Shown: positions 47,503 through 61,597 of the stretch, one piece after another | Layout of the letters: each line of letters starts with the position of its first letter | Position numbering within the stretch: position 1 is the stretch's first letter | Assembly: GCA_022510615.1 (NCBI GenBank) | Contig: JAFLTC010000006.1 | Location: 1 to 64,000, forward strand | Direction of reading: 5' to 3' | Source: Lachnospiraceae bacterium | Lineage (GTDB): Bacteria; Bacillota; Clostridia; Lachnospirales; Lachnospiraceae | Length of the DNA stretch: 64,000 bases | The notes under the pieces: generated by a model | The model's database searches: none | The model's input: only the letters and a program-made list of their open reading frames with translations | What the model was told of the DNA's origin: nothing | Position numbers and translations under genes: made by a program

Positions 47503-48531
47503 ATGAAAAAGGTAAAATGCACGATTTGTCTGTTTCTGGTATTTGTCCTGACGATAGCATCGACAGGGCAGCAGGATACACAGGCAAAAAAGAAAAAGGC
47601 AAAGCTGAGTAAAACGAAACTGACCCTGTATGTGGGGAAAACCGCAAAGCTGAAAGTAAAGAACAACAAGAAAAAGATAAAATGGTCGTCCTCGAAAAAG
47701 AAGGTGGCGATGGTATCGAAAAAAGGAAAGGTAACGGCAAAGCAAAAGGGAAAGGCGGTCATTACCGCTAAAATCGGCAAAAAGAAATTAAAATGTAAGG
47801 TGACGGTGAAGGAAAAAATCGTTTACAAGACCCAGATGATAGAAAATTTTGAGAGCTATGCACCGGGAACCGACTGGGGAAATTACACTCTGGGTGAGGG
47901 ATTGACCAGCGGCGGCGATGAGGATCCTCATTATCTGGCGAAGGACGAGACGATGAAGGTAGTTGTGGACCCGGAAAATCCAAATAATAAGGTGCTTCAG
48001 GTAAAACCGAAATTTTACAGCTATGCACCGGTCTTTACGGTAGACCTTACGAAATTAACAGGCTTATCCACAAAGAAGCTGGGAGACTATGCCGGTGTCC
48101 GCGTAAAAATCCGTGTTGTCAGCGATGCTTCCTGCCATGTGGGAATCGGTCTGAATGCCTTCTTTGGAAAAGCCGGAACGATTAATAAAAAGTATGCCTT
48201 CAATACATACACAGCAAGTGACCAGGCCTTACCAAAGGAAGTAGAATATTACAAATTTTATTATGCAAAGGGAATGCTGACTGGCGTAGGACCAGAAGAC
48301 GGCAGTATGCCACAGTTTACTGCAGGTAAACATACAAAAGGTCATAAGTTTTTGGAAAAAGATAAAAATGTTGGCTTTGCCACAAAAACACTGACCTTTA
48401 ATAAATACCTGACAAGCACCCTCAAGCAGCAAAACCAGTTTGACTTTGTGCTGGGAGGCAGTTATAGCAAGCCGTTAAAAGGGGAGTATCTGGCGTGGTA
48501 TATGGATGATGTGCAGTTGATTTACCGCTAG
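47503..48531 (+). CDS. Secreted Big_2 protein with C-terminal beta-sandwich domain
   Basis: 342 aa. Signal peptide (about 1-28, ending TQAKKK). Very lysine-rich Big_2-like domain (about 30-105; KLSKTKLTLYVGKTAKL, GKVTAKQKGKAVI). A C-terminal domain of about 230 residues begins QMIENFESYAPGTDWGNY and ends YLAWYMDDVQLIYR, a layout like carbohydrate-binding jelly-roll modules (inference). No catalytic motif seen. Probably binds extracellular or cell-wall glycans. Confidence 0.8.
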   Translation: MKKVKCTICLFLVFVLTIASTGQQDTQAKKKKAKLSKTKLTLYVGKTAKLKVKNNKKKIKWSSSKKKVAMVSKKGKVTAKQKGKAVITAKIGKKKLKCKVTVKEKIVYKTQMIENFESYAPGTDWGNYTLGEGLTSGGDEDPHYLAKDETMKVVVDPENPNNKVLQVKPKFYSYAPVFTVDLTKLTGLSTKKLGDYAGVRVKIRVVSDASCHVGIGLNAFFGKAGTINKKYAFNTYTASDQALPKEVEYYKFYYAKGMLTGVGPEDGSMPQFTAGKHTKGHKFLEKDKNVGFATKTLTFNKYLTSTLKQQNQFDFVLGGSYSKPLKGEYLAWYMDDVQLIYR

Positions 48532-48815: not shown

Positions 48816-49202
48816 TTATTTCGCCTTCTGATTTGCCTTCTCTTGAAACTTCTCATCCCAGACAATAAATCTCTCATGTCGGCCTTTGCCGATAACATCC
48901 TTATCATCAAAGGCACGGACTTCAAAAACCAGACGGCGTCCGTCAATTTCAATTAGCTCACTCTCGCAGGTGACGGTCATGCCGAGAGGGGTGGCGGCGT
49001 CATGGGAAACTTCCAGTTTAATCCCCACTGTCCCCTGTCCCTCTTCCAGATAAGGAGCCACGCTTTTCCATGCCGTTTCCTCCATCAAAGCAATCATGGC
49101 AGGAGTGGCAAAAACCTCCAGCGTACCGCTGCCCATGGCTTTTGCACAATTTCGTTCATTCGCCGTTACAGATTCGGTTCCTTTTATTCCGATTTCCAAC
49201 AT
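48816..49202 (-). CDS. Hot-dog thioesterase (fluoroacetyl-CoA thioesterase-like)
   Basis: 128 aa. The start was set at ATG 49202 (MLEIGIKG), 10 bp after GAGGA; the ATG at 49211 overlaps that site. A single hot-dog fold: SGTLEVFATPAMIALMEETAWKSV, then GTVGIKLEVSHDAATPLGMTV and ALIGxGxHERF-like VIGKGRHERFIV, as in the FlK-like family. Hydrolyses small acyl-CoA thioesters; the substrate is unknown. Confidence 0.87.
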   Translation of the reverse strand: MLEIGIKGTESVTANERNCAKAMGSGTLEVFATPAMIALMEETAWKSVAPYLEEGQGTVGIKLEVSHDAATPLGMTVTCESELIEIDGRRLVFEVRAFDDKDVIGKGRHERFIVWDEKFQEKANQKAK

Positions 49203-49266
49203 AATTATCATTCCTCACTTTATGTTTAAATTCTTTCTTTTAATTTCTGTCAAAGATGATTCGCCC

Positions 49267-49587: not shown

Positions 49588-51114
49588 CTATAGCTTCAGT
49601 CGCCGAATCTGTTCCTGCAGCTTTGCCTTTTTTTCTTCCAACAGAAGTTCCTTATTATACTCAAAAAATTTATCACAGCCATGCTCTGTCACAAACCATG
49701 CCGCCTGTGGGTTCAAAGTAAGCTCGGTAACGAAAAGAACCATCTCCGGTCTGCCGGCAAATATTTTTTCCAAAAAGAGAAAGGAATTTGTCAGAGAAGT
49801 TCGGGTTTCTTCTGCCAGCTTTTCATATTCTTCCGTAGATACCGAAAAAGCCTTTTTGATTTCTCCAAAGGCTGCTTCTCCCTCGGTAGAGGAAAAACTG
49901 CTTAGCATATTCTGGTAGGAGTAAAGAAACTGACTGGCCGCAAATCCGGTACTTTCCCCTTCTTCTGTCAACTGTCCGGCAGCACGTTTTTTCTGCTGGT
50001 TCTGCTCGAACTGCTCCAGTTCGGTAGAAAGCAATTCAGTCGGAGTTTTTGCAGAAGAGGCAAACTGCCCCTTCAGACGCTGTAATATTTCAAATACTAT
50101 GGTGAGCACGGAATCTCTCTTTTTCGTTTCGCCAAATCGCTCTCCCAGAGCTCCGAGAAACAGTCCGATGACACTCAGCACTTCATCAAAAGGAGCTTCT
50201 GCCAGCCGGGATACCATCTCCGGGGCATCCTTTCCTTGTAAAATGCCGGTAATATCATAAGAACTTTTATATTTACGGAACAAATCATAATAGCTGGAAA
50301 AATCTCTGGCGATCTCTTCGTGCTGCAAATACTGATGCACCACAGCGGTTGTAATGGGCAGGGACTGTTTTTCATAGGAAATGATTAGTCGGGATAAATC
50401 CTCCCATCCTCTTGCTGTCACAAAATCTTCGCCGTGAATCGTCGTTTCCACCTGATAAAAATTCTCTTTTTTTATATCCAGATAAGATAAAATGGCGGGA
50501 TGTACACCATGACCGTAGGCATATTCCTTCCAGGAGGTAAAGTCCTCCGCAATATCAATCCGTTTCAAACGGTCAAGAGTTACAATGTCAAAATCCCGGA
50601 CCGATTTATTGTATTCCGGCGGATTTCCGGCAGCTATAATAACCCAGCCCTCCGGTACCCGGTGGGAGCCGAAGGTCTTATATTGAAGAAATTGCAGCAT
50701 CGTGGGAGCCAGAGTTTCCGATACGCAGTTAATTTCATCCAGAAACAAAATGCCTTGGGACAAATGGCTCTGCTGCATCTTTTCATAAATGGAAGCAATA
50801 ATTTCACTCATCGTATATTCCGTGACGGAAAAGGACTGACCGTCATATTCCTTTTCCCTTATAACCGGCAGTCCGATGGCACTCTGCCTGGTGTGATGGG
50901 TAATCGTATAGGACACTAACGCTACATCTGCCTCAGCGGCAATCTGTTCCATAATGGCAGTTTTGCCGATGCCCGGCGGTCCCATAAGAAGAATGGGGCG
51001 CTGCTTTTCCACGGGGATTTCATAGCGGCCCTCTTTGTTTTTTGATAAATACACCTGCATGGTGTGAAGAATTTCCTGCTTGGCTTCTTTAATTGTCATC
51101 GTATACTGGTTCAT
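49588..51114 (-). CDS. MoxR-family AAA ATPase
   Basis: 508 aa. N-terminal AAA module (about 1-260): Walker A LLMGPPGIGKTAI, Walker B GILFLDEINCV, sensor IIAAGNPPEYN, arginine-finger region TLDRLKRIDI. The C-terminal half (about 260-508) is helical and specific to this subgroup. MoxR ATPases act as chaperones that remodel a target through a paired VWA protein. The VWA gene ends 12 bp upstream, giving the classic MoxR-VWA pair. RBS AGGAGAACACC. Target unknown. Confidence 0.9.
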   Translation of the reverse strand: MNQYTMTIKEAKQEILHTMQVYLSKNKEGRYEIPVEKQRPILLMGPPGIGKTAIMEQIAAEADVALVSYTITHHTRQSAIGLPVIREKEYDGQSFSVTEYTMSEIIASIYEKMQQSHLSQGILFLDEINCVSETLAPTMLQFLQYKTFGSHRVPEGWVIIAAGNPPEYNKSVRDFDIVTLDRLKRIDIAEDFTSWKEYAYGHGVHPAILSYLDIKKENFYQVETTIHGEDFVTARGWEDLSRLIISYEKQSLPITTAVVHQYLQHEEIARDFSSYYDLFRKYKSSYDITGILQGKDAPEMVSRLAEAPFDEVLSVIGLFLGALGERFGETKKRDSVLTIVFEILQRLKGQFASSAKTPTELLSTELEQFEQNQQKKRAAGQLTEEGESTGFAASQFLYSYQNMLSSFSSTEGEAAFGEIKKAFSVSTEEYEKLAEETRTSLTNSFLFLEKIFAGRPEMVLFVTELTLNPQAAWFVTEHGCDKFFEYNKELLLEEKKAKLQEQIRRLKL

Positions 51115-51126
51115 GGTGTTCTCCTT

Positions 51127-52455
51127 TTATTCCATAAGAAAGTCTTTCTTTTCCTCTGCCTCATCAATTCTCAGCCGGATGGCCCAATGCGGCACTCTGT
51201 CATAGGCAGGCAGGGCATGAGATGGTGTTTCCTTTAGAAAATCCGCCAGTAAAAAGGCGGTGGGATATGCAGGCGGATGCTCCGGATACGTGCCGTAGCC
51301 GTCGGTGAGAATCATAAGCCCCTGCAATCCGGAAAAGCCACCGTTCTTCTGTTGTTTCTCAATATAGTCAAAGACGCAGCGGTAATCAGTACCGCCAAAA
51401 CCTTTCACCTGAAAGGACTCTGCAAGACGGAAAAACTGTTCAAAATCCGTAATACATAAATCCTCCTGTATGATTGTATCAAATTGGAGCAGATGGATAC
51501 GGCTCTGCCGGAAAAAATACCGGGAATGCTTTAAAATGCCGTAGGTTTCCATGAGAAAACGCCGTACCGGATTACCCCGGCAGGAACCGGAGGTATCTAC
51601 CGCAATGACAAGCTCCTTTATTTTTTTCTCCTCCTTATATTCCAGTGGCTCCAATAAAGGGGTATTGCCGTACAAATCTAACCCCAATGTATAGTAGTTT
51701 ACATCAAATTCATCTTCATTTATTTTCAGATTTTCCCGCCAGGCGGCAAACCGTTTCAAAAAATAATCATACCGGTATTCCTCCTGTGTTGTAATCTGTA
51801 AAAGTTCCAGAAGCTTTCCTGCCTGATTTCCGGCACGCCGGTAAAAAGTTTCCATATTTGTTTTTGTCTTCTCGCTGATTTCCTTCCACTTTTTTTCCTG
51901 CTGCTTTTTTGACTCCTCTCCACCGTCCCTTTTCCAGAGAGCGTGGGAATCAATACAAAAATCCTGCTCCATAAAAAGCATATTCTGGTGGTAAAAAACA
52001 TGTTTTTCGAAAAAGAGGTATAGCCGTCCCGGCGTGTAAAAAATCTTATTATCCTCCAATAGCCGGTATGTCTGCTCCCGGATGGGAGACTGCATTTTCT
52101 GCAGACAGGGTACCGACAGAGAGTCAATAATGGCTTCCACACAAATATCGCAGCATAAATCCCACAGTTCTTTGCTTTCTTTTGCCGGCAGATAGAGGTG
52201 GGAGAAAATACAGTGCAGTAAATTGTGCAGATAAGCACGGTTTACCAGTACTGGATTTTCCTCGTAGGAGGAAAGCAGATATTTGGGCTGTACATACAGC
52301 GTTTCACCATCCGTGGCTGTGGAGGAAATGACAGGGCTTATTTCATAGCCCAGTCCCGCTAACGGAACATCTAAAAAACGCATGGCAAGATAGAGTTCAT
52401 TGCGTGCAGCAGACAGTATATCCTTCCCTAATTGGGCAATCGGCTGATATTCCAT
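51127..52455 (-). CDS. VWA-like protein with degenerate metallopeptidase-type N-domain (DUF2201-like)
   Basis: 442 aa. The N-terminal domain (about 1-200) resembles the DUF2201 putative metallopeptidase domain with LHNLLHCIFSHLYLP, but has Asn where HExxH zinc enzymes have Glu, so it is probably not a peptidase. The C-terminal VWA domain (about 290-430) has the MIDAS motif AVDTSGSCRG, a Thr in GGTDYRCV and LTDGYGTYPEHPP. The MIDAS should bind Mg2+ and a protein ligand. Sits between the LRR and MoxR genes in a tight minus-strand operon (9 and 12 bp gaps). Confidence 0.87.
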   Translation of the reverse strand: MEYQPIAQLGKDILSAARNELYLAMRFLDVPLAGLGYEISPVISSTATDGETLYVQPKYLLSSYEENPVLVNRAYLHNLLHCIFSHLYLPAKESKELWDLCCDICVEAIIDSLSVPCLQKMQSPIREQTYRLLEDNKIFYTPGRLYLFFEKHVFYHQNMLFMEQDFCIDSHALWKRDGGEESKKQQEKKWKEISEKTKTNMETFYRRAGNQAGKLLELLQITTQEEYRYDYFLKRFAAWRENLKINEDEFDVNYYTLGLDLYGNTPLLEPLEYKEEKKIKELVIAVDTSGSCRGNPVRRFLMETYGILKHSRYFFRQSRIHLLQFDTIIQEDLCITDFEQFFRLAESFQVKGFGGTDYRCVFDYIEKQQKNGGFSGLQGLMILTDGYGTYPEHPPAYPTAFLLADFLKETPSHALPAYDRVPHWAIRLRIDEAEEKKDFLME

Positions 52456-52464
52456 GTGTTCCTC

Positions 52465-53253
52465 CTATAGCGCAAATTTCCCGGCACCTTTTTTATCGTC
52501 TCCGGCAGTCCGGTTTTTTACATCCAGAACATAGCTGATGAGCTCCGGCCGTTCCAGAGAGGCGGCAATCTCTCCTGCTAACGTAAGCAGTTTGACATCG
52601 ACGTTATCCCCCTCCAAAAAGAAATGCAGGCTATCCATGTCCGGTTCTTTCATATACCAGGTCAGAAGCTCCCTGGTATGCTCCTTAAAGTATTGTTCAT
52701 ACATAGAAGAACAATCCTCTGACAGCTGGTGGGGAAAGCGCAGCCGGTAGGATAGAATACGGGCAAGCACGGAAATTTCTTCACTGACACAGGCGCGTTT
52801 CCACAGGCTGTCATACCTTGGATAATCAATACGGGAATCAAAGAAACATTGCTGATAAAGATAGCCGGTGCCATATCCTACCTCGCTGAAAATTCTTGCC
52901 GGCTCGTTGGCAATATACTCATACTCATAATGGGGAAATAAAAGCACGGCACAGTCCTGCTCCGAATATATGACAGTGACTTTGATTTCATGGTTCATAT
53001 CATACAGGATATCCTTTAAACAGTTGCAGTTATCTTCGCCTTTCCGAAGAATAATATGAGATACCCGCTGACAGTTTTTAAAGGCACCGTCTTCGATTTC
53101 AATACTGCCGTGGGGCAGAATTACCGTCTCTAAGTAACGGCAGTTATAAAAGGCGTGTTTTCCGATCACCTTTGTGCCTTCGGGAATCTCAATTTTTTGC
53201 AATTTTTCGTTTCCGGCATAGGCATAATCCGGTATCCGGTGTGCTTGCTCCAT
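52465..53253 (-). CDS. BspA-type leucine-rich-repeat protein of the MoxR/VWA operon
   Basis: 262 aa. Start ATG 53253 (MEQAHRIPDYAYAG) after GGGGAAGGACAGG is preferred to the ATG 8 codons earlier. The N-terminal part (about 10-70) has two or three BspA-like LRR units (IPDYAYAGNEKLQKIEIPEG, IGKHAFYNCRYLETVILP, IEDGAFKNCQRVSHIIL). The rest (about 80-262) is a helical domain that includes an ankyrin-like SLHFFLEGDNVDVKLLTLAGEIA. No signal peptide, so it is cytoplasmic. First gene of the operon; probably an adaptor or target-recognition subunit for the MoxR-VWA pair (inference). Confidence 0.8.
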   Translation of the reverse strand: MEQAHRIPDYAYAGNEKLQKIEIPEGTKVIGKHAFYNCRYLETVILPHGSIEIEDGAFKNCQRVSHIILRKGEDNCNCLKDILYDMNHEIKVTVIYSEQDCAVLLFPHYEYEYIANEPARIFSEVGYGTGYLYQQCFFDSRIDYPRYDSLWKRACVSEEISVLARILSYRLRFPHQLSEDCSSMYEQYFKEHTRELLTWYMKEPDMDSLHFFLEGDNVDVKLLTLAGEIAASLERPELISYVLDVKNRTAGDDKKGAGKFAL

Positions 53254-53308
53254 GCGACCTGTCCTTCCCCTTTTCATTCTGTTTCAATATACAAAGAATA
53301 GCACTGTA

Positions 53309-53337
53309 TGGACTTTTTGACAAGAAAATGATATAAT
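53309..53337 (+). promoter_or_regulatory. Candidate promoter of the zinc-ribbon/RelA-like operon
   Basis: TGGACT, 17-bp spacer, TATAAT; the palindrome copy at 53358 would lie in the 5' leader. Confidence 0.55.
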
Positions 53338-53357
53338 AATTTTAAATTGGGTTTATA

Positions 53358-53381
53358 TAGCACGATGGCGCCATCGTGCCA
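53358..53381. repeat. Dispersed palindromic repeat, copy 5 (perfect)
   Basis: GCACGATGGCGCCATCGTGC is a perfect 20-bp palindrome, flanked by TA and CA. It sits between the divergent MoxR/VWA/LRR and zinc-ribbon/RelA-like operons, right before the AGAAGGGA ribosome-binding site. Confidence 0.8.
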
Positions 53382-53399
53382 GAAAGAAGGGATGAGTAT

Positions 53400-53834
53400 A
53401 TGTATTGTCATAATTGTGGAAATCCGTTAGGGGATGGAGATAAATTTTGCAGCGCCTGTGGGACACCGGTTGGTGATGAGGGAAAACCTGAGCAGTCAGA
53501 GGAGCAGACAGAGCTGAGAAGCCAGCCGGCATCTGAGGAGCGGGTCGTGTGGGAAGAATCGCAGCCGGTAGCTGATACACACAAAAGAAATACTGGACTT
53601 TTGGTGGCAGTGGTTATTATTGCCGGGGTGCTGACGTTCCTTGTTCTGCTGATCAGCATCTTTATCTGGGGCGGAAAGGCTGAAGGTAGTCTGGAAAAAT
53701 GGAGGGAGCGCTATCGGCCCTACGAAGATCTGGAAGAGGAGGAAGAACCGGCAGATGACGAGGATTTCTGGGGTTCTTACAATGGGGACGAATTTGACAG
53801 GAAAGGGAATCCGGACAGTAACCGTTATTTGTAA
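53400..53834 (+). CDS. Zinc-ribbon single-pass membrane protein
   Basis: 144 aa; start ATG 53400 (MYCHNCG), RBS AGAAGGG. The N-terminal zinc ribbon CHNCG...CSACG (about 3-24) is followed by an acidic linker, one membrane helix (LLVAVVIIAGVLTFLVLLISIFIWGG, about 68-93), and an acidic tail (DLEEEEEPADDEDF). The zinc ribbon should face the cytoplasm. 14 bp upstream of the RelA/SpoT-like gene; may tether or sense for it (inference). Confidence 0.83.
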   Translation: MYCHNCGNPLGDGDKFCSACGTPVGDEGKPEQSEEQTELRSQPASEERVVWEESQPVADTHKRNTGLLVAVVIIAGVLTFLVLLISIFIWGGKAEGSLEKWRERYRPYEDLEEEEEPADDEDFWGSYNGDEFDRKGNPDSNRYL

Positions 53835-53848
53835 GAGGGAGTGTGGCA

Positions 53849-55639
53849 ATGAAATATGATGTAGAGGAAATCAGGGGTAAAATTCATACAGGACAATTGG
53901 AAGGAATCGGCGAGAGACTGGAGGAAGACATCGAGAGCATATTAAAACGTGGAGGCATTTATTTTCGAATTTTTAACCGGGCAAAAACACCCTTTTCCAT
54001 TGCGAATAAGCTGGAAAAGGGCGGATACGGTTTCGGGGAAAACGAAAAAAAACTACAGGACTTAGTAGGACTCCGTGTGGTCGTTTATTATCAGGATGAT
54101 ATGAATATTGTAAGGTCTATTCTGGAAGAAACTTTCTGTCTTGAGGGTGAGTGGTCAGAAACCGATACGACCGAGGAGGAATTCAAGGCATCGAAGTTCA
54201 ATGGTGTATTCCGTATTCCCGATGAATATCAGCGGATTTATAACGGGGACATCAGCTGCGTGCCGGCGGATTTGACTTTTGAGGTACAGCTGCGGACCAT
54301 TTCCTTTGAAGGATGGCATGAAATTGAGCATGACATGCGCTATAAATCTCCTCATGGCGAGGAATTCTGGAAAAACAACGGGGATTTGTCCCGGACTTTA
54401 AACTGTGTACTCGCGAATCTGGAGTTGTGCGACTGGTCTACTCTCAGCGTGTTTGACCAGCTATCCTACTATCATTACGAAGAGGGAAACTGGGAGATGA
54501 TGCTGAAAGGAAAATTCCGTCTCCGTTTTGATGTAAAACCGTTGGCACCGGAACTCATCGATTTTCTGGATGATAATCTTGGTGTGGCATACTGCCTGTA
54601 CCGTTGTACAAGAGACCGGGTTATCTATGCCCTGTTACGGGAGGGCAATTATGAAAAACTGACCTATAATCTTCTGGTAAAGGTGGCAAATGAAACGGTG
54701 GCAACCTATGACAACAAGATTCAGAGGCGTCTTGCCAAGTTGTGTAACGAGATACTAAAGGCGGAGAAAACGCCGCCGGCAGAAAGAGCGGATTTAAATC
54801 CTATGGATGTGACACCGAATTTTCAGCTGAATGTGGTACTGTCCCACCATCCGGAAACGGAGCTTCAGGAAGAATTCATGACAGCGGTGCAGATGATTGG
54901 TGTATGGGCTCAGAGCCGTTTTCACAATATTGTCGGTGATATACCGGTGGAACCGGTGGATTATGAGCTCCATATGGCGGGGTACAACCTGCAGATTTCA
55001 GCAAATGCGTCCTTAGGTTTTTATCGACTGAATCTGGATTATGTAGATATGGAACGGAAAGGAGTAATCTGGCGGACCAGTGTAAGTCTGGAAAGAAGTG
55101 AGCGGATTCGGATGAAGGTGCAGTGCGACTATTGTCATCCACCGGACCGTTTGATTCGTGAGAGTTTTGCAAAACCCCGCTTTGTGGACGAAATTTTCCG
55201 CAAGATTGGCTATGAGGATGTGATACCGATGTCTTTAAAGCCGAGGAAGGTACATAATCTGAAGGATATAGAAAATCTCAGTGAGTTTATTGCTGCCCCG
55301 GCAAGGAATCTGCCGGTCATCGTGGCAGTGGAAGATGAAGACGGGGAACGGCAGATTAATGTGACGAGACTGGCCGAGACGGTGGGAACCTATGCCCATG
55401 TATTTTTGCTGGACAAAAAGGCAATACCGGTCATGGTGGAATCCTCGGATTATACGAGGGAGGAACTGCTTGGTTCCGTCTGGGTCACTTTTCGGGACGG
55501 TGAGGATAAATTTTACACGAAAGAAATGATTGCGGACAGCCGTTTTGACTTTAACAAATACGCATTTGACCGGGGCAATATCTATGAAAAGGCTTTCCGC
55601 CATAAATTGGTAAGGCTTATTAAGGAAAAGAATTGCTGA
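53849..55639 (+). CDS. Divergent RelA/SpoT-domain protein with unknown C-terminal domain
   Basis: 596 aa; ATG 53849 about 9 bp after AAGAGGGA. The N-terminal half (about 1-190) is a RelA/SpoT nucleotidyltransferase-like domain: NRAKTPFSIANKLEKG (substrate-binding Arg/Lys loop), DLVGLRVVVYYQDD, and EVQLRTISFEGWHEIEHDMRYK with the conserved Glu. The segment that normally reads NGYxSLH is NGVFRIP here, so the guanine-stacking Tyr and the His are missing. No HD hydrolase, TGS or ACT domain. The C-terminal part (about 300-596) is unrecognised and contains LPVIVAVEDEDGE and RLAETVGTYAHVFLLD. May make a different nucleotide or act as a sensor. Confidence 0.8.
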   Translation: MKYDVEEIRGKIHTGQLEGIGERLEEDIESILKRGGIYFRIFNRAKTPFSIANKLEKGGYGFGENEKKLQDLVGLRVVVYYQDDMNIVRSILEETFCLEGEWSETDTTEEEFKASKFNGVFRIPDEYQRIYNGDISCVPADLTFEVQLRTISFEGWHEIEHDMRYKSPHGEEFWKNNGDLSRTLNCVLANLELCDWSTLSVFDQLSYYHYEEGNWEMMLKGKFRLRFDVKPLAPELIDFLDDNLGVAYCLYRCTRDRVIYALLREGNYEKLTYNLLVKVANETVATYDNKIQRRLAKLCNEILKAEKTPPAERADLNPMDVTPNFQLNVVLSHHPETELQEEFMTAVQMIGVWAQSRFHNIVGDIPVEPVDYELHMAGYNLQISANASLGFYRLNLDYVDMERKGVIWRTSVSLERSERIRMKVQCDYCHPPDRLIRESFAKPRFVDEIFRKIGYEDVIPMSLKPRKVHNLKDIENLSEFIAAPARNLPVIVAVEDEDGERQINVTRLAETVGTYAHVFLLDKKAIPVMVESSDYTREELLGSVWVTFRDGEDKFYTKEMIADSRFDFNKYAFDRGNIYEKAFRHKLVRLIKEKNC

Positions 55640-55741: not shown

Positions 55742-56932
55742 ATGAAAAAAACATGCAAAGTTTTAATGATGGTTTTTGCCGTTGCTTTTGGTGTTTTGCT
55801 TTTGACGGGCACTTCCAGTAAGGCGGCAGCAACAATTACTGGTCTCCAACAGACAAAGGCATCAAGCACCTCTGTCACGGTACAATGGCAGGCTGTTATG
55901 GAAAATAGTGTATATTATTCGACTCACATCGGTACGAGTGCAAACAATCTGACCCGACAGGATAACCAATATGGAACAACCGGCTATATCAGTGGACTGA
56001 CAGAAGGCGGTACATATTATGTTCAGGTACGGGCCTATTCCGATTATGCAAGAAATACAGTTATCGCAATATCACCTGTTATTCAGGTAGCTACCACGCT
56101 GGCTGATGTATCGGGTGTTACCCAGACTTCCGCAACAGGAAATACCATTACAATGAAATGGAATCCGGTAACGGGGGCGACAAGTTACTATATCTATCGT
56201 TATGCAAATAGTACCTATACACAAATTGGCAGTTCCAAGACAGCAAGCTATATGGTGACAGGTCTGTCTCCATCTTTGCAGGCAAGCTTCTATGTGGTAG
56301 CAGTAAAGACAACTACCTCTGGATTTACTGTATCAAGTGATTATTATAGAGGAGCTTCTATGCGGACGACACCGGCCAAGCCGGCAAATGTCGCTATCAC
56401 GAGCTGGTATGACAATATTAATGTGGCATACTTGGGTTGGAACGGTGTAAGCTGTAACGGATATCAGGTACAGATTCAGAACAGCAAGGGTAAAACATTG
56501 TTAAATCAGGATGTATCCTATAACAGCCTTAGAGTAAGCCCGTTCTGGAAAGGGGTATTTACGAAGACCCGTGTAAGAGGTTACATTACCATAGGTAACA
56601 AGAAGCTTTACGGTCCATGGTCCGATTATAGCTACAATGCTTCCAATAAATCCATTAAAATATCAAGTAAGAGTAGAAAAATCAAGGTAAAATGGAAAAA
56701 GATTACCGGTGCGGCAGGATATACGATTTATATTTCTAATAAATCCGATTCCGGCTTTAAGAAAGTAAAAACACTGGGCAAGAAAAAGACTTCCATTACC
56801 ATCAAGAAATGTGGTAAGAAAAAGCTGAAAAAGAGAAAAACCTATTATGTTCGTGTGAAATACTTAACAAAAGTAGGCAAAAAGAAAGTAGCCAGTGGAG
56901 TAATGGGACAGGGGTCCATCTACGTTTATTAA
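55742..56932 (+). CDS. Secreted fibronectin-III repeat protein
   Basis: 396 aa. Signal peptide (about 1-29, hydrophobic core VLMMVFAVAFGVLLL, ending SKAAA). Four FN3-like modules: about 31-118, 119-210 (NTITMKWNPVTGATSYYIYR), 213-300, and a lysine-rich fourth at about 303-396 (KIKVKWKKITGAAGYTIYI). No catalytic domain and no sortase signal. Strong own promoter and terminator make it a single-gene, probably abundant, extracellular structural or binding protein. Confidence 0.83.
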   Translation: MKKTCKVLMMVFAVAFGVLLLTGTSSKAAATITGLQQTKASSTSVTVQWQAVMENSVYYSTHIGTSANNLTRQDNQYGTTGYISGLTEGGTYYVQVRAYSDYARNTVIAISPVIQVATTLADVSGVTQTSATGNTITMKWNPVTGATSYYIYRYANSTYTQIGSSKTASYMVTGLSPSLQASFYVVAVKTTTSGFTVSSDYYRGASMRTTPAKPANVAITSWYDNINVAYLGWNGVSCNGYQVQIQNSKGKTLLNQDVSYNSLRVSPFWKGVFTKTRVRGYITIGNKKLYGPWSDYSYNASNKSIKISSKSRKIKVKWKKITGAAGYTIYISNKSDSGFKKVKTLGKKKTSITIKKCGKKKLKKRKTYYVRVKYLTKVGKKKVASGVMGQGSIYVY

Positions 56933-59955: not shown

Positions 59956-59990
59956 TAGCACGATGGTGCCAGCGTACCAGCGTGTCGCTA
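59956..59990. repeat. Dispersed palindromic repeat, copy 6 (degenerate long form)
   Basis: Left arm TAGCACGATGG intact; right side CCAGCGTGTCGCTA diverged. Directly followed by ACAGGAGGA, the ribosome-binding site of the secreted C39-like protein. Confidence 0.6.
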
Positions 59991-60010
59991 CACAGGAGGA
60001 ATCAGAGGAA

Positions 60011-61597
60011 ATGACAGAGAAGCTGCAACGGATGTTATGGATAGGAACATGCTTGCTGGCACTTGGCATCTGGCTGATGCCGGTACATTCTTTTGGTGCC
60101 TTAAAAAAAGATACGGCTTATTTTGCCGAGGTTGAAAAGATCCTTTTGTCCTCCTCTACAAAGACAGTAGAGTATCAATACGGAAAAATAAATTCCGGGA
60201 AAAATAAATACTGGAAAAAGGCAGTTTCTCTCCCCCTGACGGCTTCTAAGGTGAAGATTTCCAAAAAGGGCTGGTATACGGTCAGGGTGACCTCCGATTC
60301 AGGCAACAAAAAGCTGAGTAAAAAGCTACACAAAATCAAACTGAAAAAGAAAACCTATCGGGTAGCTGCAAATACACCGGTAAAGCAAAAAGCCGGCAGA
60401 TATTATCTGATACCGAAAGGTAATAAGGGCGACGCCCTGAAGATGCCGGCGGGCTCCTGTCAGCCGGGGATAGCTGCCATTATCGGAGAAAAAGAAGCAG
60501 CGGCATATTCTGTCTGGCAGCTGAAACCGGCGGAAGGGAAAAAATTCCGGTTAAAAAACAGTAACAGCAATCTCTATCTGGGACTGGAAGCGGGAAAGAC
60601 AAAGAGTGGGGCATCCTTTGTCCAGAAAAAGTATTCGGAGACGGATATGACTTTGTTATTCGAGGCGGCATCTGCCGGAGGATCTTATTATTACATAAAA
60701 AATGTGGGGAATGGCAGATATCTGCGGCTCAAGGATAACGTGGTTGTAGCGGCTAAGAGAAAAAATAAAAAGGCATGGAAATATCGGATAAAGAAGACGA
60801 AAAAGCCGGATTCCTATGCGGCGGCAAGGGATTATACCTATCCGACCTCTGTGTTGTTAGGTTCTTCTTTTGTTTTGAAGGGGACGGTTTCCTCCCATTA
60901 TACGATGACCTCTCTGACTGCTTCCGTCATAAACAATAACAATACGGTTGTATTGAAAAAAACGGTAGCGCCAGAGAGCTGTCTCTATGATTTAAAAGGG
61001 ATTGATGCGGCGATGACTTTTGGCAGACTGCCGGTGGGAAACTACCGCTATATCGTGACGGTAACGGACAAAAGGGGTGCGACCTTTACCGTGATTAACC
61101 GGAATTTTGGGGTATATGCTCTTTCTATTGTAAATGGGAAAGTGCTTTCCTATGATGCGGCAAAAATTCTAGCAATAGGACATCAGTCCAACGGGACTGC
61201 CTTAGAGAAAAAGGCATGTGCCTCCTATGCCCTGGCATATTGCAATTCCATTTTAGATGGCACCACTCCGAGTCCCCATACCTACTGGCTCAGTGAAACA
61301 AAGGTGGACTGTGTATGGAGTAAGGGCGGCTACACGACCTATGCCTATGATTCGGAAAGTGCCGTTCTCCAGGCGGCTTACGCTCAGATTACCGCAGGCA
61401 GACCTTGTATTCTCTATGTGACGGGAAGTACAAGCAGCCAGCACTGGCTGACACTCATTGGATATAAAAATGTTACTTCTGTCCAGTCGCTAAACGCCGG
61501 TAATTTCATTGCTATTGACCCATGGGATGGGGCGGTTATTACCGTTTCGGATAAATATAAGGTAAAAAATCCGTATCGTCTGGGCTATAAAAGCTAA
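60011..61597 (+). CDS. Secreted protein with ricin-type lectin and C39-like peptidase domains
   Basis: 528 aa. Start ATG 60011 (MTEKLQRMLW) after AGGAGG; the ORF-track ATG lies inside the palindromic repeat. Signal peptide (about 1-32, IGTCLLALGIWLMPVHSFGA). Lysine-rich beta region (about 35-115), then a RICIN-like beta-trefoil (about 118-260: YRVAANTP, FRLKNSNSNLYLGLEAG, YYYIKNVGNGRYLRLKDN). An Ig-like segment follows (about 275-375), then a C-terminal papain-like C39-type domain (about 385-528) with a Cys in KACASYALAYCN and a His in SSQHWLTLIGY. Probably binds glycans and cleaves peptides outside the cell; peptidase activity is inferred from the two residues. Confidence 0.8.
   Translation: MTEKLQRMLWIGTCLLALGIWLMPVHSFGALKKDTAYFAEVEKILLSSSTKTVEYQYGKINSGKNKYWKKAVSLPLTASKVKISKKGWYTVRVTSDSGNKKLSKKLHKIKLKKKTYRVAANTPVKQKAGRYYLIPKGNKGDALKMPAGSCQPGIAAIIGEKEAAAYSVWQLKPAEGKKFRLKNSNSNLYLGLEAGKTKSGASFVQKKYSETDMTLLFEAASAGGSYYYIKNVGNGRYLRLKDNVVVAAKRKNKKAWKYRIKKTKKPDSYAAARDYTYPTSVLLGSSFVLKGTVSSHYTMTSLTASVINNNNTVVLKKTVAPESCLYDLKGIDAAMTFGRLPVGNYRYIVTVTDKRGATFTVINRNFGVYALSIVNGKVLSYDAAKILAIGHQSNGTALEKKACASYALAYCNSILDGTTPSPHTYWLSETKVDCVWSKGGYTTYAYDSESAVLQAAYAQITAGRPCILYVTGSTSSQHWLTLIGYKNVTSVQSLNAGNFIAIDPWDGAVITVSDKYKVKNPYRLGYKS

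Follow-up and report, generated by a model that had tools for sequence, protein, structure and literature searches.

Examination of the window, the whole analysed stretch of 64,000 nucleotides, revealed five genes arranged in two divergent groups. The three minus-strand genes, hereafter the trio, are predicted to encode an LRR protein, a VWA protein and a MoxR-like AAA+ ATPase, with gaps of 9 bp (VWA-LRR) and 12 bp (MoxR-VWA), while a zinc-ribbon membrane protein and a RelA/SpoT-like protein are encoded on the plus strand (Table 1). The probable start codon of the LRR gene is preceded by GGGGAAGG and lies about 146 bp from the zinc-ribbon gene. When the coordinates were re-derived, the five-gene layout, the 12 and 9 bp gaps and the exact 20-bp palindrome all agreed with an earlier sequence-only reading of this DNA. 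The genome from which the window comes is an assembly of 2.1 Mb in 129 contigs (88% complete), and the closest named relative of the window is CANQYY010000013.1, an uncultured Lachnospiraceae bacterium. Putative secreted proteins (Big_2, fn3 and a large uncharacterised protein) flank the locus at 47503-48531, 55742-56932 and 59963-61597 of the window, and a hotdog protein similar to FlK-type fluoroacetyl-CoA thioesterases (48816-49211; E 1.5e-40) serves as a synteny marker for the clade-1 locus.

Table 1. Genes and other features of the locus, with positions in the window.
Feature	Position	Strand	Details
MoxR-like AAA+ ATPase	49588..51114	-	508 aa; Pfam AAA 4.8e-9 and AAA_5 8.5e-8 (above cut-off)
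VWA protein	51127..52455	-	442 aa; Pfam DUF2201 5.5e-11 and weak DUF2201_N
LRR protein	52465..53277	-	270 aa; 262 aa from probable ATG 53253; LRR_5 8.7e-15
Predicted trio promoter	53295..53323	-	Consensus match only
Predicted promoter of the zinc-ribbon/RelA-SpoT-like operon	53309..53337	+	Consensus match only
20-bp perfect palindrome	53360..53379		No strand; dispersed genomic repeat
Zinc-ribbon single-pass membrane protein	53400..53834	+	Likely start ATG 53400; Zn_Ribbon_1 3.2e-9; neighbour, outside the trio
RelA/SpoT-like synthetase-domain protein	53843..55639	+	598 aa; RelA_SpoT 4.5e-14; neighbour, outside the trio

The LRR-VWA-MoxR trio is a real, conserved unit. Its distribution was investigated in 39 genomes of the genus, 298 genomes of the family (taken as Lachnospiraceae, going by the named matches) and 399 genomes of the phylum, and in a scan of named genomes in which 80 loci were kept out of 569 relatives. 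The VWA protein was present in 24 of the 39 genus genomes and 172 of the 298 sampled family genomes, with presence counts varying with the profile thresholds. Two VWA types were distinguished in the genus: type 1, about 60-76% identical, occupies one syntenic site in the window and nine genomes, and type 2, about 35-41% identical, is located elsewhere. Gene order was scored only where the length of the flank or contig allowed it, and all genus loci on a long enough contig, except that of G007, have LRR before VWA and MoxR after it. The LRR protein had been proposed as a true third component of the MoxR-VWA pair, and this was borne out by the named loci, 68 of 80 of which have an LRR gene adjoining VWA as against 2 of 339 background ORFs (0.6%); almost every locus has an AAA+ gene next to VWA, and in some named loci the LRR gene sits downstream of MoxR. 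The C-terminal domain of the LRR protein was detected in 108 of the 298 family genomes, all of which carry VWA (Fisher p 5e-36), and in 91 of these 108 it lies directly upstream of VWA on the same strand. A natural LRR-VWA fusion, found in one genome only (G038, L041:7885-10200), forms a single reading frame of 771 aa. In the phylum sample, matches were obtained in 10 of 399 genomes. With the window set aside, nine loci remain, and in no fewer than five of them VWA has an LRR gene as its neighbour; among members of other families, the LRR gene lies upstream of VWA in G724, G513 and G639, and between the other two genes in G723 (order VWA-LRR-MoxR).

The distance matrices of the three proteins were correlated (r 0.84-0.88; permutation maximum 0.24), a correlation to which shared species history contributes. 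The AAA+ protein is the most conserved and the LRR protein the fastest evolving, the mean pairwise identities being 0.54, 0.47 and 0.30 for AAA+, VWA and LRR, respectively. The LRR protein is not obligatory, for no recognisable LRR C-terminal domain was found in 64 of the 172 family genomes with VWA, and some six to eight of the named loci are without a nearby LRR gene. No replacement third component was found in the LRR-less loci, where the neighbours are ordinary (uridine-kinase-family, ParA/NUBPL, URO-D and diguanylate cyclase), and clustering of the neighbours brought out neither a fourth component nor a client that recurs as the trio genes do. At L188, from an uncultured clostridium, and L189, from Pseudoflavonifractor, VWA is bordered on both sides by genes for large LRR proteins (612-702 aa and others); at these two loci no MoxR was found within the stretch examined.

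The LRR protein consists of a short BspA-type LRR (residues 15-80) followed by an alpha+beta domain (about 84-265), and its AlphaFold model has a pLDDT of 92.8 and a pTM of 0.88. The LRR_5 repeats, detected by Pfam in all 68 LRR proteins scanned, are shared with BspA-type LRR proteins such as TpLRR (6MLX), 4FS7 and 4GT6, from which the present protein differs in that the LRR is short and is followed by a new alpha+beta domain tied to the presence of VWA. No Pfam match to the C-terminal domain was shared among the 68 proteins, and Foldseek searches of the PDB and of viral models (BFVD) matched only the LRR part, with no E below 0.001. The C-terminal domain is a new domain without a match in Pfam, the PDB or BFVD, and is offered here with a confident predicted structure.

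Sequence analysis of the VWA protein revealed a zincin-like half (DUF2201_N) followed by a DUF2201 VWA domain with an intact MIDAS, the residues of which (D287, S289, S291, T356, and D385) were invariant in 46 aligned sequences. Pfam detected DUF2201 in all 46 homologues and DUF2201_N in 45 of them, and no domain beyond DUF2201 in the 46 proteins; the protein ends shortly after the VWA fold. A profile search of the PDB with the VWA protein returned only calcium-channel VWA domains with E near 1, and almost no literature on DUF2201 was found in the open-access papers searched. The annotation of DUF2201_N as a putative metallopeptidase domain, together with the invariance of three histidines (H77, H81, and H86) and of D103, D169, and H171 in the 46 sequences, would favour a peptidase system in which the AAA+ ring feeds a catalytically active VWA zinc metallopeptidase. 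However, the glutamate of the HExxH motif, at position 78, was seen in just 2 of 46 aligned homologues and in 1 of 76 loci where the motif could be read; the other 44 and 75 have M, S, N, T, L or further residues there, and the motif reads HNLLH in the window. The metallopeptidase-type domain is therefore degenerate, just as the sequence-only reading had described it, and an active metallopeptidase was rejected on the loss of HExxH. Because this glutamate is nearly always lost, the VWA protein is probably not a peptidase, and we regard a peptidase system as extremely improbable. With the catalytic glutamate lost and the histidines and aspartates kept, the zincin-like half more likely binds a metal structurally, or for the maturation of a metal centre, than cuts peptides.

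The AAA+ protein contains Walker A (GPPGIGKT), Walker B (ILFLDEIN), AGNP and DRLKR motifs, which are conserved in 20 homologues and supply the Walker, sensor 1 and arginine-finger elements expected of a P-loop AAA+ core. Comparison with Pfam gave 21.3 bits for bpMoxR and 16.8 bits for AAA_3, both under the cut-off. Because a profile search of the PDB matched classic AAA proteins of the p97/FtsH type and not the solved MoxR proteins, the placement in the MoxR group rests on the Pfam AAA_5 match and the pairing with VWA.

Two divergent promoters were predicted in the intergenic region, overlapping at 53295-53337. That of the trio is composed of a -35 box TTGTCA (53323-53318), a 17-nt spacer and an extended -10 box TGC-TATTCT (53300-53295), and that of the RelA/SpoT-like operon of a -35 box TGGACT, a 17-nt spacer and an extended -10 box TGA-TATAAT. 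Nine of the ten clade-1 loci retain the box that holds the trio promoter; in genomes that lack the trio, this box was not detected ahead of the RelA/SpoT-like operon. The palindrome GCACGATGGCGCCATCGTGC is 20 bp long and perfect, as had been noted from the sequence, but it is not specific to the locus: 23 genomic sites were found at ≤3 mismatches, four of them exact, as against 0 for a control pattern, and nine relatives lack it at the same intergenic site. The five copies inspected all lie between genes. The palindrome is a dispersed repeat, not an operator, the latter having been rejected because a dispersed repeat is concerned that is missing from the intergenic region of the relatives.

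The N-terminal domain of the RelA/SpoT-like protein is SAS-like, and its fold matches RelP (6ewz; E 2e-5). In small alarmone synthetases the canonical G-loop is a tyrosine motif of the NGYRSLH type; the altered G-loop of this protein reads NGVFRIP, and D73 and E147, at the positions of the catalytic Asp and Glu, are invariant in 33 sequences. The C-terminal half gave weak SRPBCC/START-like and thioredoxin-like fold matches, and the protein shows similarity to HEC-07 of PADLOC. It was found in 16-17 of the 39 genus genomes and 24 of the 298 family genomes, as a rule not beside the trio, and in the clade-1 genomes L118 and L057 the zinc-ribbon gene was not detected beside it.

In each of the ten clade-1 genomes, the window included, the trio and the RelA/SpoT-like operon lie side by side in divergent orientation. 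This arrangement, together with the conservation of the overlapping promoters and the confinement of the trio box described above, would favour one functional module of five genes, a link that the sequence-only reading had raised; in such a module the trio would regulate the RelA/SpoT-like enzyme or be regulated by it. Genome comparison has largely refuted this module. In G033, G034, G003 and others that lack the trio, the operon keeps its syntenic site, next to the hotdog thioesterase or to the fn3-truA-M18 genes, and type-2 trios are located away from it. Among the 22 carriers of the RelA/SpoT-like protein outside the genus, VWA is absent from 4, and in 16 it is separated by ≥18 kb or sits on a different contig, with G290 and G309 left out of this assignment; no adjacency of trio and RelA/SpoT-like gene was found in the resolvable genomes outside the genus. 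Since the operon stays in place without the trio, and VWA is absent, distant or on a different contig in the resolved carriers outside the genus, the linkage is local: the neighbourhood analysis showed that the five genes do not stay together across Lachnospiraceae, their linkage being confined to a single clade within the genus. The RelA/SpoT-like gene was rejected on linkage as a part of the system. The operon is independent, a shared promoter region in a single clade being all that ties it to the trio, and a five-gene module is very unlikely.

Regarding the function of the trio, we lean towards the view that the products of the three minus-strand genes work together as one ATP-driven remodelling machine of three components, in which the LRR protein is a docking adaptor on the VWA protein. 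The MoxR-like protein would assemble as a ring, and the VWA protein would plug this ring and grip a client through the metal of its MIDAS. The dependence of the LRR protein on VWA, together with the indirect indications of its gene position and the single fusion, suggests that it docks on the VWA protein through the new C-terminal domain; its LRR face would provide client recognition or tethering. The trio would best be read as a remodelling chaperone of the NorQ/NorD or RavA/ViaA kind that has, in addition, a new adaptor in the form of the LRR protein.

The client of NorQ/NorD is nitric oxide reductase. One NorD sits on each NorQ hexamer, mutants in Walker B or MIDAS lose client activity, the NorD MIDAS has been proposed to bind an acidic patch of the client, and an adaptor-type mechanism has been put forward (PMC9976466). 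Given the conserved motifs, a similar mode of action is likely here. The trio has in common with NorQ/NorD, RavA/ViaA and CbbQ/CbbO an AAA+ protein and a VWA partner with intact MIDAS encoded in the same operon; those systems are two-component as described, whereas the present operon encodes, as a third component, an LRR protein that carries a new domain, and its VWA partner has the DUF2201_N zincin-like half. The two domains and their order are those of DUF2201_N/DUF2201 proteins (Pfam PF13203/PF09967), except that the metallopeptidase glutamate is nearly always missing in the trio branch.

The LRR protein could instead be the client, matured or remodelled by the MoxR-VWA pair. The genes for MoxR-VWA chaperones frequently neighbour that of the client, as in norQ/norD and cbbQ/cbbO, and the fact that the LRR C-terminal domain never occurs without VWA (108/108) is expected of a dependent client too. 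On the other hand, the LRR protein has no evident cofactor site and is fused to VWA in G038, and the large LRR proteins of differing length at L188 and L189 fit interchangeable recognition parts better than a single enzyme client. The client reading is considered rather unlikely.

Another alternative is a defence or conflict system with the LRR protein as the sensor of an invader, as LRRs are sensors in eukaryotic NLRs, and the LRR protein evolves faster than its two partners. The published MoxR-vWA ternary conflict systems likewise combine MoxR, vWA and a dedicated, sensor-like third protein in one operon, the defining component being VMAP, iSTAND, FtsH, a beta-propeller, iSTAND2 or TERNS3 (PMC7159879, PMC8195603), and in TERNS3 systems it is encoded by a conserved 5' gene, as the LRR protein is here. 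In contrast to those systems, which occur mainly in multicellular lineages, the trio is found in gut clostridia, has as its third component an LRR protein with a Pfam-unmatched domain, and has neither an effector fused to VWA nor a defence context that could be seen. A Pfam scan of the 68 LRR proteins, which covers the known third components only as far as these have a Pfam model, found none of them, and the LRR stretch of the window protein is short. Of the 134 flanking proteins, no more than 9 gave a PADLOC match, cysteine-desulfurase-type matches among them; the remaining neighbours of the trio are diverse ordinary genes, and the trio proteins themselves gave no PADLOC match beyond generic AAA. 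With no defence enrichment in the 134 flanking proteins, a defence island was rejected and the phage-response role raised by the sequence-only reading was not upheld; a stress role is possible. A defence system is, on this evidence, decidedly unlikely. Because no LRR version of the ternary systems was found, and because VWA is without an effector and no defence context was seen, the trio is not filed among conflict systems; it would work in the manner of a MoxR-VWA remodelling pair that has acquired a new third component. Somewhat speculatively, and in our judgement improbably, the trio may be an undescribed MoxR-vWA ternary system in which the cytoplasmic LRR protein, with its new C-terminal fold, is an interchangeable sensor, its LRR faces swapped between lineages; if so, the AAA+ ring and the metal-bound VWA protein would transmit the signal, providing a bacterial parallel to LRR-sensing NTPases.

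No published system of MoxR-VWA-LRR composition was found in the open-access literature searched, in line with the initial impression that this composition matches no nameable system. As a remodelling machine with an LRR adaptor, the trio would add a type of third component to the MoxR-VWA class, and the LRR protein would give a direct experimental handle on how MoxR-VWA machines choose their clients. The VWA protein, typically with an LRR neighbour, is present in over half of the family genomes sampled, the members of this family being abundant gut bacteria.
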